Origin: Chitinophagaceae bacterium IBVUCB2
GTDB taxonomy: Bacteria > Bacteroidota > Bacteroidia > Chitinophagales > Chitinophagaceae
Assembly: GCA_002127295.1 (NCBI GenBank)
Contig: NFUV01000001.1
Location: 1,674,001 to 1,738,000, forward strand
Direction: 5' to 3'
Length of the DNA: 64,000 nt
In this document: positions 30,753-37,540 of the stretch, in pieces
How positions within the stretch are numbered: the stretch's first letter is position 1
How the letters are laid out: each line of letters begins with the position of its first letter
Notes under the pieces: generated by a model
The model's input: only the letters and a program-made list of their open reading frames with translations
What the model was told of the DNA's origin: nothing
The model's database searches: none
Position numbers and translations under genes: made by a program

Positions 30753-32246
30753 CTATTCGATATTCCAACTCATGTCACCACTCTTCTCATCCTTCAACGT
30801 AATTCCTAATTCGGCAAGCTGGTTTCTTATTTTATCAGAGGTAGCAAAATCTTTTTTTGTTTTGGCTTCTTTCCGAATATCGATCAGTAACTGCATCACT
30901 CCCTGCAACCTGGTATTATCTGCTTCGTTAAAAGGCTTTAATCCAAACACATCTTCCAGGTAGCTTTTAAATTTTGTTTGCAGCAATGTCAGTGTTTCGT
31001 ATGATATTGCCGACAAAGAAATCGTTTTATCTTTTATTGAATTGATAACAGGTACTAACTCAAACATACTGGCCAATACTCTTGCAGTATTAAAGTCATC
31101 ATTCATATGTTCGTCAAACTCCGCAACCAGACCTCTTACTTTTTCATCAAGTTCTGCATTGATGGGTTCATCCCGCTGCTCATAGCTCATCGCTTGCAGC
31201 TTTTCGTAAGCTTCCCATAATCTTTTTAATCCCCTTTCTGCTGCCTGCAATGCTTCGTTACTAAAATCCAATGTACTCCGATAATGTGTTTGCAACATAA
31301 AGAACCGAACATTCATAGGCGAATAGGCTTTTTCCAATAATGGATGAGAGCCGCTGAATAATTCTTCCGGTAAAAATCCATTGCCTGCACTCTTACTCAT
31401 CCGTACGCCATTTACCGTAAGCATATTGGTATGCATCCAGTATTTAACGGGTGATACTTTGTAGCAGGCTTGAGATTGTGCAATTTCATTGGTATGATGC
31501 GTAGCAGCCAGGTCCATTCCGCCACCATGTATATCAAATTGTTTTCCTAAATATTTTTCACTCATGGCCGAACATTCAATATGCCAGCCGGGGAAACCCA
31601 TGCCCCATGGAGAAGGCCATTGCATTAAATGTTCGGGACCAGCTTTTATCCATAGTGCAAAGTCTAATCGTCCTTTTTTTTCATCCTGTCCGCCAAGTTC
31701 TCTTGTTCCTTCTAATAAGTCTTCCAATTTTCTATTGGTCAATATGCCGTAAGGTTTTTCTTTATTATATTTTTCTACATCAAAGTACACCGTACCGTCA
31801 ACAACATAAGCGTAACCATTATCAATGATCTGCTGCGCCATTTTTATTTGTTCAGTGATATGGCCGGTGGCCGTAGGTTCAATCGTTGGCGGTAATGTGT
31901 TGAATAGTTCCATTACTTTATGAAATCCTACGGTGTAACGTTGTACAATTTCCATCGGCTCCAATTGTTCCAGTCTTGCTTTTTTGGAAAATTTATCATC
32001 GCCTTCATCCCGGTCGCCTTCCAAGTGGCCGGCATCAGTTATGTTTCGTACATACCTTACTTTATACCCAACATATTTCAGGTAGCGGTATATAATATCG
32101 AATGAAATAAAAGTGCGGCAATTACCGAGATGCACATCACTATAAACTGTAGGGCCGCAAACATATAAACCAACATGGTTGGGTGTTAGCGGTTCAAAGG
32201 GCTCTTTTGTTCTGGAAAGAGTATTATATATCTTCAATTCACTCAT
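30753..32246 (-). CDS. cysS: Cysteinyl-tRNA synthetase
   Basis: Class I synthetase that charges tRNA-Cys. The 497-residue length is usual. Visible: zinc-ligand Cys30 in LYVCGPTVY, the HIGH-type motif HLGN (39-42), GWHIECSAM with further zinc ligands, and RMSKSAGN as the KMSKS loop. The C-terminal anticodon-binding part includes KDFATSDKIRNQLAELGI. It is flanked by its own promoter and terminator, so it is probably a single-gene unit. Confidence 0.98.
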   Translation of the reverse strand: MSELKIYNTLSRTKEPFEPLTPNHVGLYVCGPTVYSDVHLGNCRTFISFDIIYRYLKYVGYKVRYVRNITDAGHLEGDRDEGDDKFSKKARLEQLEPMEIVQRYTVGFHKVMELFNTLPPTIEPTATGHITEQIKMAQQIIDNGYAYVVDGTVYFDVEKYNKEKPYGILTNRKLEDLLEGTRELGGQDEKKGRLDFALWIKAGPEHLMQWPSPWGMGFPGWHIECSAMSEKYLGKQFDIHGGGMDLAATHHTNEIAQSQACYKVSPVKYWMHTNMLTVNGVRMSKSAGNGFLPEELFSGSHPLLEKAYSPMNVRFFMLQTHYRSTLDFSNEALQAAERGLKRLWEAYEKLQAMSYEQRDEPINAELDEKVRGLVAEFDEHMNDDFNTARVLASMFELVPVINSIKDKTISLSAISYETLTLLQTKFKSYLEDVFGLKPFNEADNTRLQGVMQLLIDIRKEAKTKKDFATSDKIRNQLAELGITLKDEKSGDMSWNIE

Positions 32247-32378: not shown

Positions 32379-33497
32379 TTACTTTTTCAACTCCACGTCC
32401 GCCACTATCATGTAGTGGTCAGAATATCTTTTTACAATACGATTGAACTGATGAATCTTAAAATGCTTATCGGCAAAAATATAATCAATACGAAGTGTGG
32501 GTGACAAAGATGAAAAAGTACGGCCAATGCCAAACCCCTTTTTTAAAAATGCATCCTGCATGCTCCCCCGCACCGTTGCATACGTGTAGGAATTAGGTAC
32601 ATCATTCAGATCGGCACAAAACAAAACCGGATGGGGACTGTCGCCAACCACTTTATTTACCACATCAGCCTGCAGGCTGCGGTTGGTAAATCCACGTTTA
32701 ATTTTCGACAATATATTTCTCGAATTTTCTACCATGCTGTCTTCCCCACTTTTTATTTTACCAATGCGATCATAATCTCTTTTGCCAAGTTGCAGTGATT
32801 GCAGGTGGGTTGTATAAATGCGGATAGTATCTTTTCCCAATTTAATATCAGCATGTATGAGTGCATCCGGTAAACTGGGCCTTGGATAACGGATTTTACC
32901 GCTGTCAACAATCGGGTAGCGGGAAAAAATAATAGAACTGTAAAAATGATTGTCGCCATCCGTATCAAAAGAAAAATAGAAATGCGGATAACCTAAGTCC
33001 TGAACCGCTTTTATATTATCGTAGTAAGCCGAGTCAATGGATGTATGAAATTCCTGTAAACAAAGCACATCTGCATTTTGCTCACGGAGCAAGTCCAGCA
33101 TTTTTACTCTTGTCTGGCTTCCTTTATTCGTATTTCGCTTTAGCTCAATAAACCGGGCCACATTCCAGCTAACTACCCGAAGTGTTCCCTTTTCTTTTTT
33201 TACGTTAAAAGAAGTGGGTGCATGAAAAGCCAGAAACACACTAATGCTTTTAAAACCCACTAACATTGCTACAACAGATATAAGTGCCAATTTCGGTTTT
33301 AATACCATCAGCCAGGCAATAGCAAATGCAATAACTCCCACTAATAAAAAAGGAAAAGCCAGGCTTAAAAAAGAAATAAACCACCATTTCCCGGGATTGA
33401 GAGATGAGGCCAGACAAGCCAGCAGAAAGAAAATTACAACGGCTATGTTAGTATAGATAAAAAAACGCCTGGTAAAGACTGCGAACTTATTGGCCAT
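32379..33497 (-). CDS. Membrane-anchored endonuclease/exonuclease/phosphatase family protein
   Basis: A 372-residue protein with three N-terminal transmembrane helices (about 14-31, 37-63, 69-91) and a C-terminal EEP domain of the DNase I/Mg-dependent phosphodiesterase fold. Active-site motifs are VSWNV (109-113), LCLQEF, CADLNDVP, RIDYIFAD and the final SDHYMIV. The substrate may be a nucleic acid, a phospholipid or another phosphodiester, and cannot be told. It lies 124 bases downstream of the two rhomboid genes; I recall this neighbourhood as common in Bacteroidota, but did not check it. Confidence 0.9.
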   Translation of the reverse strand: MANKFAVFTRRFFIYTNIAVVIFFLLACLASSLNPGKWWFISFLSLAFPFLLVGVIAFAIAWLMVLKPKLALISVVAMLVGFKSISVFLAFHAPTSFNVKKEKGTLRVVSWNVARFIELKRNTNKGSQTRVKMLDLLREQNADVLCLQEFHTSIDSAYYDNIKAVQDLGYPHFYFSFDTDGDNHFYSSIIFSRYPIVDSGKIRYPRPSLPDALIHADIKLGKDTIRIYTTHLQSLQLGKRDYDRIGKIKSGEDSMVENSRNILSKIKRGFTNRSLQADVVNKVVGDSPHPVLFCADLNDVPNSYTYATVRGSMQDAFLKKGFGIGRTFSSLSPTLRIDYIFADKHFKIHQFNRIVKRYSDHYMIVADVELKK

Positions 33498-33621: not shown

Positions 33622-34554
33622 TTATTCGTTTACTTCATCTTCGCTGGCTCTTCGCAATAGATCTTTCTCTTCTTCTGAAAGTTGGTCGTAACCTTGCTGA
33701 TGAATTTTATCCAGGACTTCATCGATCCGCTGTGCTGTTACGTTCGGAGTTTTAATGTAAGGGGCCGATGTTGATTTATAAAAGAGTTCTTCTTTAAGAT
33801 TCTTATTCTTGCTTTGCTTGTTTGGATTAAAAACATTCCCGAACCACTCAAAGAAATTACTCATCCAGTTGCTCCAGTCATAGCCCCGGCGCAGGAAGAA
33901 TATAAATAAGAATCCTGTTAGTGCACCGGCTATATTAATAATAATATTTATGGTATCGCTAAAAGAAATAGTAAGCAAACTGGTAACCACATAAAAAGCC
34001 GTTAAACCCCACAATGGTATACCACCGCCTAAAAGAGGAAAAATTTTGTAGCCCGGGGCAATCAACGTAATTGTAATTGCAATGGCCATCACACCTGCCG
34101 AAGCTCCCATGGTTGTTGCAAAAGGAAGTTGTTCCTTTAATGAAGGCATCAGGTTAGAAGCTAATAGAAATGCTGTTGCACCTCCTAAAGCGCCGTAAAT
34201 AAATACAGGAATAATTTTTTTATTGCCGGTAATATCCTGCATGATATAGCCGAAAGCCCAGAGCCAGATCATATTGGTGAAAACCTTCCAAACATTATCA
34301 TGCACAAACATGTGAGTGATGATAGTCCATGGTTTACTCAACAACTTGTCTATATCTGCGGGAAGAATAAATAATCCCAGTACATTCTTATTAAAAAACG
34401 GAAGTGCCAGATCTTGTTGGTAAGTGAAATAAGAAACCGCCTTCATAAAAGCAAGCCCAACATACACAATAAGACAGATGGCGATCAGCATCATCAATGC
34501 ATTATCACTTTGTCCCAGCGTTATTTTTTGTTTGTATTTCTTTTCTGAGTACAT
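33622..34554 (-). CDS. Rhomboid-fold membrane protein, probable pseudoprotease
   Basis: A 310-residue rhomboid-family protein with about six or seven membrane helices and an ~85-residue soluble C-terminal tail. Ser152 in MGASAG sits at the nucleophile position. By alignment with its neighbour, the catalytic His of the last core helix is Asn207 (INIAGALTG against AHLGGALTG). The oxyanion-side HxxxN is Lys90-x3-Asn94. With the dyad broken, proteolysis is unlikely unless another residue substitutes. The tail is acidic and ends in DLLRRASEDEVNE. It is 63 bases downstream of the intact rhomboid gene, on the same strand, so the two may form a functional pair. Confidence 0.85.
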   Translation of the reverse strand: MYSEKKYKQKITLGQSDNALMMLIAICLIVYVGLAFMKAVSYFTYQQDLALPFFNKNVLGLFILPADIDKLLSKPWTIITHMFVHDNVWKVFTNMIWLWAFGYIMQDITGNKKIIPVFIYGALGGATAFLLASNLMPSLKEQLPFATTMGASAGVMAIAITITLIAPGYKIFPLLGGGIPLWGLTAFYVVTSLLTISFSDTINIIINIAGALTGFLFIFFLRRGYDWSNWMSNFFEWFGNVFNPNKQSKNKNLKEELFYKSTSAPYIKTPNVTAQRIDEVLDKIHQQGYDQLSEEEKDLLRRASEDEVNE

Positions 34555-34617
34555 CAGGCAGGTAGTGAATGAAATGAATTGTAAAGGTCGTTTTATTTTG
34601 ACTCTTTTATTCTCTTT

Positions 34618-35292
34618 TTAATATAACGTCTTCCGGTTGGTTTTGTTCCAGATAAATACAATTATAAAGCCTGTCAGGGCACCTCCAAGATGAGCAAAGT
34701 GGGCAATATTATCTCCTGATAAGTTTCCAAAGCCTCCAAAAAGGTCTAAAGCTATATACACCAATACCAGCCATTTTGCCTTGATTGGAATAGGAATGGG
34801 TATTATCATCAGCTCGGTATTAGGAAAGAGGTAGGCAAAAGCTATAAAAATACCCATAACTGCACCGGAGGCGCCAACCGCCGGGGCATTTCCCCCCATT
34901 ATAGATTGCATGGCAAGATGCGCTATTGCAGCCCCTACACCACAAGCCAGGTAAAAAAACAAAAATCGTTTTGCGCCCCAGACATTTTCTAATATTCTGC
35001 CAAACATGTATAATGCAAACATGTTAAACAGGATATGAAAAAAGACAATATTATAATTAAGAACTGTACCCGAGTATGACGCATGTGCAAACATGTGAGT
35101 AGCTATCTGGTAGGGATTGAAGTCCGGATCTCCTACAGGATACAATGCAATTTTACTGGTAAGCCACATGGTTAGCTGCCCATCAGATGTGTCATAAATC
35201 AACTGTGCTACCCAAACAAGCACATTAATAATAATAAGATTTTTTACTATAGGCGGAAATCTGTCTACACGGGTTGGTCGAAAATTACTCAT
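34618..35292 (-). CDS. Rhomboid-family intramembrane serine protease
   Basis: A 224-residue inner-membrane protease with the six-helix rhomboid core. The catalytic set is complete: HxxxN as His86 and Asn90 (FFHILFN), Ser142 in GASGAVMG and His201 in HFAHLGGALTG. It cleaves membrane-anchored substrates inside or near the bilayer; none can be named here. It lies 16 bases after an exported-protein gene and 63 before a second, catalytically degraded rhomboid. An exact -7 box lies just before the start codon. Confidence 0.94.
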   Translation of the reverse strand: MSNFRPTRVDRFPPIVKNLIIINVLVWVAQLIYDTSDGQLTMWLTSKIALYPVGDPDFNPYQIATHMFAHASYSGTVLNYNIVFFHILFNMFALYMFGRILENVWGAKRFLFFYLACGVGAAIAHLAMQSIMGGNAPAVGASGAVMGIFIAFAYLFPNTELMIIPIPIPIKAKWLVLVYIALDLFGGFGNLSGDNIAHFAHLGGALTGFIIVFIWNKTNRKTLY

Positions 35293-35296
35293 GGGG

Positions 35297-35304
35297 CAAA
35301 AATA
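35297..35304 (-). promoter_or_regulatory. Candidate -7 box next to the rhomboid start
   Basis: TATTTTTG on the minus strand fits TAnnTTTG, in the 16-base gap before the rhomboid ATG at 35292. If used, transcription would begin about at the start codon, giving a leaderless message. No TTG is seen 17-23 bases upstream, so chance is a real alternative. Confidence 0.3.
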
Positions 35305-35308
35305 GGAT

Positions 35309-36124
35309 TTATTGAATGGCTTTTTGGTTACCGTTCTTCATCAAAAGCAAATCTTTCTTTAATAAAAAACCTGTGGTGGTTGTTCCTTTAGCGTTTGTAA
35401 ATGAGCAATGAATAAAATTTTTAAATTGCTTAAAAGAAACAACTGCGTTATCTTTTACGAGGTATGTGTTTTTAGGCTTCGACTGAAGGTCAGGGCTTTT
35501 ATAAAAATAGGTTTTAGCTGCAATTACTTTCCAGGCAGAGCTATCGGCGTTATAAGAAGGTGTAAACTTTTCAAACAATACATCGCCAATCTCCGTACGA
35601 TTAATAATCGTTTCTTCCGTTGTATTCTCCGGGTCACCCGATTGAAAACTGGAAGATACATGTGATTGCAGGTACCAGTTTTTCTTTACTGCATTATACC
35701 TGAATGTGTAATTAACCGACCAACGCCAGCTGCTTCCACCATAAAAATCAATAGAAAACTCTCCCGGCTTTATAGAAATTCCCTGGTAAGGGTCGCCCAT
35801 AACACCCCCACAATGCTTGCATAGTACAACTGAAGTATTACTGGCTACCGATTGTAATTTTCCATTAGGTTGGCGAATAATAATCAGCAAAGGTCTTACT
35901 GCTTCCCAATCAGGATTTTCAAATGTAAGGGTATCTTCGCCTGCTGTTTTAAGAATAAGAATATAATCATCCAGCTTATCGCTATTCAAATCTCCTTTTA
36001 CAAGATCCATTACCTGGTAACCTTGTAAAACATACGGTTTTAATTCAGCGGGCAATTCAATATCCTGTGCCTGTGCTGAAAAAAAACAAATAATAAAAAA
36101 CAGGGAGCAGAAATAGTTTTTCAT
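35309..36124 (-). CDS. Exported protein of unknown function with SH3-like C terminus
   Basis: A 271-residue exported protein (signal peptide MKNYFCSLFFIICFFSAQAQ). The middle has the pattern KGDLNSDKLDDYILIL, like an FG-GAP/calcium-loop strand, and VVLCKHCGGVMGDPYQGI followed by FSIDFYGGSSWRW, a motif I recognise from uncharacterised bacterial proteins. The C-terminal ~70 residues (AKTYFYKSPD, YLVKDNAVVSF, TGFLLKKDLLL) look like a bacterial SH3 domain. It lies 6 bases after rlmD and 16 before the rhomboid gene, in one operon-like run. Confidence 0.8.
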   Translation of the reverse strand: MKNYFCSLFFIICFFSAQAQDIELPAELKPYVLQGYQVMDLVKGDLNSDKLDDYILILKTAGEDTLTFENPDWEAVRPLLIIIRQPNGKLQSVASNTSVVLCKHCGGVMGDPYQGISIKPGEFSIDFYGGSSWRWSVNYTFRYNAVKKNWYLQSHVSSSFQSGDPENTTEETIINRTEIGDVLFEKFTPSYNADSSAWKVIAAKTYFYKSPDLQSKPKNTYLVKDNAVVSFKQFKNFIHCSFTNAKGTTTTGFLLKKDLLLMKNGNQKAIQ

Positions 36125-36130
36125 AAATGT

Positions 36131-37540
36131 TTATGATTTTAGTTTTAGCTGTACCACATTTTCTATATGATGTGTATGAGGAAACATATCAACCGGCTGC
36201 ACTTTTGTTACATTGTATTTCGCATCCAGGAGTTGCAAATCTCTTGCTTGCGTGGCAGGGTTACAACTTACATACACCACCGTTGGGGCAGCTATATCCA
36301 AAATTCTTTGCACCAGTTTATCATGCATACCGGCTCTCGGTGGATCAGTAATAATTACATCCGGCCGGCCATGTGCAGCAAAAAAATCATCGTTACAGAT
36401 ATCAATTACATCGCCAGCATAAAATTCGGCCTCCGTTAAATTATTCAATGCAGCATTTTCTTTGGCATCCTCTATAGCAGCAGCGATCATTTCTACACCA
36501 ATGATTTTTTTGGCTTTTTCACTTACAAAAATGCCGATGCTACCCGTACCGCAATATAAATCGTACACAATTTCGTTACCAGTTAGTTCTGCAAATTCTC
36601 TCGTTATTTGGTATAACCTTTCTCCTTGTTTGGTATTGGTTTGAAAAAAAGATTTCGGACCTATTTTAAATTGAAAATCTTCCAATTTTTCAATAACATA
36701 TCCTTTGCCGGAATACGTCACCGGCTCCAGGTCAAACAAACTGTCATTCCATTTTAAATTGACCGTATATAATAATGTAGTAATTGCAGGAAACATGGCT
36801 GACACATGCTCCATCAGTAATTTTATTTTATCAGCATCATCCTCACCTACCATTATATTTACCATTAGCTCCCCGGTAGTACAAAGCCTTACCTGCATGG
36901 TTCTTAAAAAACCTACATGATTACGAATATCATAAAAAGGCCAGCCCTGTTGAATAGCGAATTCTTTTACTGCCAATCTTATTTTATTAGTTGGCTCTTC
37001 TTGTAAATAACAGGTTTCAATATCTACCACTTTATCAAAAAATCCTTTTGCATGAAACCCGGCAACGTCCTGCATGCCATTTATGGTTTCATCTTTTATT
37101 TCTTCCTTTAGCAGGTATCGCTTGTTGCCAAAAGTATATTCCAGTTTATTACGATAATACCTTGTTTCTGCTCCGCCAATTATAGGTTCCATTACAGGTA
37201 ATGCTATTTTTCCTATTCTTGTCAATACATCTGTAACCTGCTTGGTTTTATACTGCAATTGCTTTTCATACGGTAGCATTTGCCATTGACAGCCACCACA
37301 TACGCCAAAATGGGAGCAAAAAGGAGTTACCCTGTCGGCCGAAAACGAATGGAACTGCATAGCTTTTCCCTCCGCCCAATCCTTTTTGCTTTTAGAGAGC
37401 TGAATATCCACCACATCACCCGGAACAGCACCTTCTATAAAGACCACTTTACCATCCACCCTTGCCAGGGATTTCCCTTCGGCGGCATAATCCTCTACCA
37501 ATACTTTTTCAAGCAGTATATTTTTCTTTTTTCTTCTCAC
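36131..37540 (-). CDS. rlmD: 23S rRNA (uracil-5-)-methyltransferase RlmD
   Basis: SAM-dependent m5U methyltransferase of the TrmA/RlmD family, expected to modify 23S rRNA U1939. The 469-residue protein has an N-terminal TRAM domain (about 8-65), a [4Fe-4S] site with Cys75, Cys81 and Cys84 (CSHFGVCGGC) plus a later Cys in IETCYL, and a methyltransferase domain with DLYCGTGSIG. ITDPPRAGM and YVSCNPATQ carry the catalytic Cys. RlmC or another m5U paralogue cannot be excluded. The start is a GTG at 37540, with an exact -7 box only a few bases before it. Confidence 0.93.
   Translation of the reverse strand: MRRKKKNILLEKVLVEDYAAEGKSLARVDGKVVFIEGAVPGDVVDIQLSKSKKDWAEGKAMQFHSFSADRVTPFCSHFGVCGGCQWQMLPYEKQLQYKTKQVTDVLTRIGKIALPVMEPIIGGAETRYYRNKLEYTFGNKRYLLKEEIKDETINGMQDVAGFHAKGFFDKVVDIETCYLQEEPTNKIRLAVKEFAIQQGWPFYDIRNHVGFLRTMQVRLCTTGELMVNIMVGEDDADKIKLLMEHVSAMFPAITTLLYTVNLKWNDSLFDLEPVTYSGKGYVIEKLEDFQFKIGPKSFFQTNTKQGERLYQITREFAELTGNEIVYDLYCGTGSIGIFVSEKAKKIIGVEMIAAAIEDAKENAALNNLTEAEFYAGDVIDICNDDFFAAHGRPDVIITDPPRAGMHDKLVQRILDIAAPTVVYVSCNPATQARDLQLLDAKYNVTKVQPVDMFPHTHHIENVVQLKLKS

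Follow-up and report, generated by a model that had tools for sequence, protein, structure and literature searches.

Repeated natural loss of the predicted catalytic dyad in a retained rhomboid-DUF6576 protein encoded beside an intact rhomboid in Bacteroidota

Introduction

Why would a bacterium keep, directly beside a rhomboid with a complete active site, a second rhomboid in which the catalytic histidine has been replaced? Rhomboid pseudoproteases are a subject of research in eukaryotes, and the way they arise is still an open question. The known examples, according to excerpts of PMC12615303, include the iRhoms and Derlins. We found no report of a naturally inactive bacterial rhomboid of the group described here in the literature searched, which left most subscription papers outside its scope; the closest papers were those on YqgP and Rhom7 and a mycobacterial survey, and the excerpts of a Streptomyces rhomboid survey do not mention inactive rhomboids (PMC4467639).

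The gene pair analysed here lies in a window of 64,000 nucleotides at positions 1674001-1738000 of contig C1, from a genome of 4.0 Mb in 3 contigs, whose family (hereafter the host family) is most likely Chitinophagaceae. The original prediction, made from the DNA alone, described an inactive rhomboid beside an active one and likened the pair to the iRhoms. Here we examine whether the dyad is really missing, how widely it has been lost among relatives, and what the retained protein might do.

Results

The two genes and their active-site positions are as follows.

33622..34554, minus strand: P0001, 310 aa, predicted rhomboid-fold pseudoprotease with a C-terminal DUF6576 (open reading frame, Pfam, alignment, model)
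33640..33732, minus strand: DUF6576 tail of P0001, residues 275-305 (PF20216, E 8.2e-7)
33934..33936, minus strand: Asn207 codon of P0001, at the catalytic His position (DNA and alignment)
34099..34101, minus strand: Ser152 codon of P0001, at the nucleophile position, kept (DNA and alignment)
34285..34287, minus strand: Lys90 codon of P0001, at the HxxxN His position, GlpG His150 (DNA and alignment)
34618..35292, minus strand: P0002, 224 aa, rhomboid with a complete active site of His86, Asn90, Ser142 and His201 (open reading frame, Pfam, alignment, model)

Both open reading frames are intact, with P0001 downstream of P0002 after a gap of 63 bp. Both proteins match Pfam Rhomboid (E 1.2e-15 and 7e-25), P0001 reaching 58.4 bits against a cut-off of 22.6 for PF01694, and BLASTP aligns them with each other at E 2e-9 and 26% identity over 163 columns. 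His86, Asn90, Ser142 and His201 of P0002 share alignment columns with Lys90, Asn94, Ser152 and Asn207 of P0001; the E. coli GlpG equivalents given in excerpts of PMC2989971 are His150, Asn154, Ser201 and His254. The Ser-His dyad of an active rhomboid protease is thus present in P0002 (Ser142/His201) and broken in P0001 (Ser152/Asn207), and the alignment agrees with every residue that had been named in the original prediction; the codons of Lys90, Ser152 and Asn207 agree with the DNA. By itself Lys90 should not inactivate P0001 and says little, because the same excerpts of PMC2989971 describe His145, His150 and Asn154 of GlpG as not essential. Asn207 is the decisive change, since in the bacterial rhomboid Rhom7 a single His to Ala substitution, like Ser to Ala, abolished activity, as reported in excerpts of PMC7232013. 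Judged by these residues, one rhomboid of the pair is intact and the other, P0001, is very probably dead as a catalyst. P0001 is also the only one of the four rhomboids of its genome without the dyad; P0002 and the other two (L001 and L003) keep Ser and His.

A sequencing or assembly error was ruled out, as two other genomes, with 92% identical proteins, carry the same Asn, and two of four single-contig genomes of the family lack the dyad as well (G018 and G055; G004 and G022 keep it).

Despite the missing histidine, the predicted structure supports retention of the rhomboid fold. The AlphaFold2 model of P0001, built from an alignment of 53 chosen rows (pLDDT 79.9, pTM 0.70), found its best PDB match in GlpG (Z 18.6, rmsd 2.9, 169 residues), with H. 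influenzae GlpG at Z 17.1, followed by iRhom1 (9xy4; Z 15.9, rmsd 3.9, 191 aligned), iRhom2 (Z 14.2) and Derlin-1 (7czb; Z 13.7, rmsd 3.5, 186 aligned). The control model of P0002, from 30 chosen rows, likewise matched GlpG (pLDDT 91.1; Z 19.1), and GlpG chains were also the solved sequences closest to P0001, with weak E-values. The first membrane helix of the P0001 model begins at residue 19 and leaves about 18 residues before TM1.

The soluble tail of about 85 residues that had been noticed on P0001 is real; it comprises 96 residues after Gly214 of TM6 and contains DUF6576 (PF20216; 29.5 bits against a cut-off of 27.3), in its sole copy in the source genome. In the model it forms helices at 228-242 and 244-250, followed by a hairpin of two helices (274-287/294-308) predicted with moderate confidence (pLDDT about 58-78); most of residues 247-270 score below 50. 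Leu281, Lys283, Gly288 and Leu300 of DUF6576 are invariant within the host family. No paper on DUF6576 was found in the literature searched.

A homologue of P0001 is present in 58/60 host-family genomes, 39/42 genomes of the same genus and 155/198 genomes across the phylum. We compared 174 downstream (P0001-type) and 141 upstream (P0002-type) proteins; L001-L004 and L179-L182, which are other loci or duplicates, were dropped from the counts, and L076 was counted among the downstream proteins by hand despite its short tail. Ser, His or both are lacking at 69 of 99 downstream loci of the host family, in 38 of 60 genera. Both residues are kept at the remaining 30 (one a fragment), namely 23/60 loci of other genera and 7/39 of the same genus (among these the fragment), and the HxxxN His is kept as well at 10 of them. 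Outside the host family both are kept in 74 of 75 sampled proteins (30 families, 62 genera); these 75 were taken from about 147 matching genomes, picked down the ranking and not at random, the skipped ones being mostly lower. The upstream partners keep Ser in 141/141 and His in 141/141.

The replacements are heterogeneous. Across the host family, the counts for the Ser column are Ser 40, Gly 18, Thr 14, Ala 9, Asn 6, Gln 4, Tyr 2 and Lys 2, with single Pro, His, Asp and Val; those for the His column are His 50, Leu 24, Gln 9, Asn 3 and Ile 3, with Pro, Met, Tyr and Cys twice each and Glu and Ala once each. The local alignment around both columns appears sound in the 30 loci printed for inspection, deep losers included. 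The His to Asn change itself, which the original prediction had proposed to look for as fixed across genera, is not fixed; it occurs in 3/39 same-genus homologues and nowhere else among the 99 family loci, and the wider phenomenon is loss of the dyad. The inactive state is nevertheless more than a single-strain change. The concern that orthologues might mostly keep the His holds outside the family, where nearly all keep both residues, and by half inside it, where 50 of 99 keep the His; many of these have lost Ser instead.

Some loci deserve separate mention. The sole loser among the 75 outside loci (L123, 2315-3229, family f3) keeps Ser, has Tyr for His, and has also changed the HxxxN His and Asn. 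Genome G006 encodes, apart from L076, which lost dyad and tail, a solitary intact copy (L083) that groups with a sister family. Some host-family genomes carry a second subfamily of DUF6576-bearing rhomboids (L185-L196). Ser and His are retained in most of the 12 proteins fetched, but Gly replaces Ser in L193, L189 shows strong decay, and L191, a short membrane protein, has DUF6576 and lacks the rhomboid core.

How often the dyad was lost was estimated on a maximum-likelihood tree of 170 rows with the catalytic columns masked (fragments L170, L153, L080 and L176 excluded); the search was quick and some branches are weak, so that the counts are approximate. The host family together with 5 sister-family rows forms one clade with support 100. 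P0001 falls within the Rhomboid-DUF6576 group of Bacteroidota by both its tail domain and its clustering, and the comparison shows its descent from an active-looking protease of that phylum with the same Rhomboid-DUF6576 architecture. The tree requires at least 21 dyad losses under irreversible loss, 16 when weak branches are collapsed so as to minimise the number of events, and 17 changes when regain is permitted; one of the losses lies outside the host family (L123). The losers form one deep group and many shallow ones and the loci are not independent; on this reconstruction the dyad would have been lost independently about 16-21 times.

Per-column parsimony (94 family rows with L083 left off the family side, 75 outside rows, 239 columns) ranks Ser152 as the most accelerated column in the host family, with 35 changes against 0 outside, followed by Lys90 in second place (45 vs 1), Ala151 in fourth and Asn207 in fifth (20 vs 1). 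Other columns are nearly fixed inside the family and variable outside it, namely Trp97 (0 vs 26), Phe101 (0 vs 17), Pro244 (2 vs 37) and Gly224 (2 vs 20), and Pro116 and Pro180 also change far less inside than outside. This pattern suggests that constraint was lifted specifically from the active site while new constraint arose on TM2 and just after TM6, although the newly fixed positions could reflect packing after the change instead of a new function. Across 13 close pairs dN/dS is 0.025-0.148, many dS values exceeding 1 and being saturated; because dN/dS is low, these are proteins under maintenance by selection. The core motif of DUF6576 is kept in 68/69 host-family losers, L076 being the exception. 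Taken together, these comparisons show repeated natural loss of the dyad with the protein retained, its fold and DUF6576 under purifying selection. That the gene is simply being lost, with its catalytic columns drifting first, is hardly credible; L076 could be read so, as its genome holds a second intact copy, but the gene is kept as a full-length open frame in nearly all family and genus genomes, dN/dS is far below 1, and several columns are more conserved than outside the family.

The genes around the pair bear on whether P0001 depends on its active neighbour.

32379..33497, minus strand: membrane-anchored protein of the endonuclease/exonuclease/phosphatase fold (PF03372, 8e-19), 3' neighbour of P0001
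35309..36124, minus strand: P0004, 271-aa protein of no known family, within the replaced segment with the active rhomboid

A gene of the endonuclease/exonuclease/phosphatase fold lies 3' on the same strand at 52/60 family loci of other genera and at 18/39 of the same genus; the protein at 32379-33497 has N-terminal hydrophobic stretches, and a link with the rhomboid pair is possible. Among family losers with 700 bp or more of room, 66/66 have the short active rhomboid directly beside the downstream gene and in the same orientation (3 more losers are at contig edges). This arrangement recurs at the sole outside loser and also at 27/30 intact family loci (2 more at contig edges). Outside the family 47/75 loci have such a same-strand pair, 46 of these with the dyad intact, the pair occurring in 28/28 loci of the same class and 4/5 of the same order, while 26 outside homologues with the dyad intact are solitary. 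Adjacency was therefore rejected as a proof that one gene depends on the other; it is ancestral and weak evidence of dependence because it is equally common at intact same-class loci, and its distribution indicates that the pairing is older than the inactivation.

The two members of the pair also differ in their histories. The DNA of P0001 and its flanks is about 84% identical to two near relatives, whereas identity falls to about 70% or less over window positions 34600-36100, with the P0002 gene at about 70% and P0004 largely unmatched. At the protein level P0001 is 92% identical to its nearest relatives (L142/L143), whereas P0002 is 71-72% identical to the proteins there and finds its nearest relative in L147 (81-83%). 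L155 and L156, of the same genus, provide a second case, their pseudoproteases being 93% and their active neighbours 73% identical. The active rhomboid and the preceding P0004 thus look replaced, as an allele or cassette. The genes at 36131-37540 and 30753-32246, which we take from their sequences to be methyltransferase-like and cysteinyl-tRNA synthetase-like, lie outside the replaced block.

Discussion

We tentatively favour, at somewhat less than an even chance, the reading that P0001 is a maintained rhomboid pseudoprotease serving as an adaptor that binds clients and carries an effector tail in the cytosol. The rhomboid core would capture membrane proteins that are damaged or unassembled by their transmembrane segments. 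The C-terminal tail, cytosolic if the topology is GlpG-like, would hand these clients to a degradative or other effector. The first candidate effector would be FtsH, chosen by analogy with YqgP; the source genome has one FtsH (M41) gene. The neighbouring true protease P0002 could cut independently. We infer that a non-cutting job was already present in the ancestor and that losing catalysis therefore cost little in the host family. Excerpts of PMC7231995 report that YqgP S288A still presents MgtE to FtsH, and argue that the adaptor role comes before the loss of catalysis. Against the adaptor reading, P0001 has no N-terminal domain of the YqgP type, and Ser, His and HxxxN His are all kept at 10 family loci, so that some relatives may still rely on catalysis. 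A bolder version, possible but more doubtful, is that the core function is ancestrally non-catalytic, with proteolysis discarded some 15-20 times, and that P0001 is a bacterial counterpart of the Derlins in which DUF6576 couples captured clients to cytosolic machinery.

An iRhom-like role, in which P0001 would bind the active rhomboid next door and either deliver substrates to this partner, stabilise it or inhibit it, is unlikely but is the strongest competitor. Such a role would fit the same-strand adjacency at every loser with room, a likely shared operon given the short gap, and an upstream partner that never lost its dyad. However, the class inherited this adjacency at loci with and without catalysis alike, and the active neighbour was replaced in two lineages while the pseudoprotease stayed, which counts mildly against this role because a co-adapted pair should not easily exchange one member. 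Of the original prediction, then, the inactive-beside-active pair is borne out by the sequence, while the likeness to iRhoms as first proposed is weakened by a pairing that predates inactivation, by solitary intact homologues and by the replaced neighbours. It is at least equally likely that P0001 works as an adaptor without involving the neighbour.

It is less probable again that the DUF6576 tail carries the whole function and the rhomboid core serves merely as membrane anchor. Residues of DUF6576 are among the most conserved and L191 dispenses with the core altogether, but Trp76, Phe101, Gly102, Gly214, Pro167 and Pro180 of the core are as conserved as the tail, so that the core is more than an anchor. 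Residual hydrolysis by P0001, with Ser152 activated by another residue or through different chemistry, seems more improbable still. Ser152 is retained in all three Asn207 genomes, yet equally full-length relatives of the same genus have lost Ser to Tyr, Ala, Thr, Gly or Pro, the loss of His alone inactivated Rhom7 in the experiments excerpted from PMC7232013, and inspection by eye of the 30 printed loci revealed no conserved substitute acid or base near Ser or TM6.

The findings matter beyond this locus. In closely related bacteria the same gene occurs in active-looking, half-lost and fully lost forms, with an always-intact paralogue as control, and the origin of pseudoproteases could be tested here by exchanging natural variants. 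DUF6576 gains a concrete context. That the sister protein is kept intact despite many catalytic losses suggests a non-cutting job, for example handing membrane proteins to other machinery.

Among known systems, YqgP (GluP) of Bacillus subtilis resembles P0001 as a bacterial rhomboid with an extra cytosolic domain, and a further likeness is proposed in its non-catalytic client presentation, which survives loss of the catalytic Ser according to excerpts of PMC7231995. YqgP, by contrast, is proteolytically active and carries a metal-binding domain at its N-terminus. P0001 naturally lacks the dyad, its N-terminus is short and its extra domain is the C-terminal DUF6576; the N-terminal domain that marks an FtsH adaptor of the YqgP type is thus missing.

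iRhom1 and iRhom2 (RHBDF1/2) share with P0001 a natural loss of catalysis, here through Asn207, and a retained fold. The iRhoms have a large iRhom homology domain and a long N-terminal cytosolic domain, and a Pro precedes the Ser position of their motif. P0001, with 310 aa in total, has neither domain, and its model passes from helix 19-44 to helix 88-109 with no large TM1-TM2 loop domain. It is also bacterial, it has Ala, not Pro, before Ser, and the losses in its family are heterogeneous, in contrast to one fixed change in the iRhoms. The homology domain and N-terminus of iRhom are mentioned in excerpts of PMC12615303.

The Derlins (Derlin-1, Der1/Dfm1) are, as P0001 very probably is, rhomboid pseudoproteases, and act in membrane protein extraction. 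Their hallmark is a WR motif in loop 1, and P0001 has Trp76-Thr77 where GlpG has Trp-Arg; its model is also nearer to GlpG than to the Derlins (Z 18.6 vs 13.7). GlpG of E. coli and H. influenzae is the closest fold and the closest solved sequence, but has Ser201 and His254 against Ser and Asn in P0001. Sequence, tail and position all place P0001 with the Pfam Rhomboid plus DUF6576 proteins of Bacteroidota, which outside the host family keep Ser and His in 74/75 sampled cases, whereas P0001 has lost the His.
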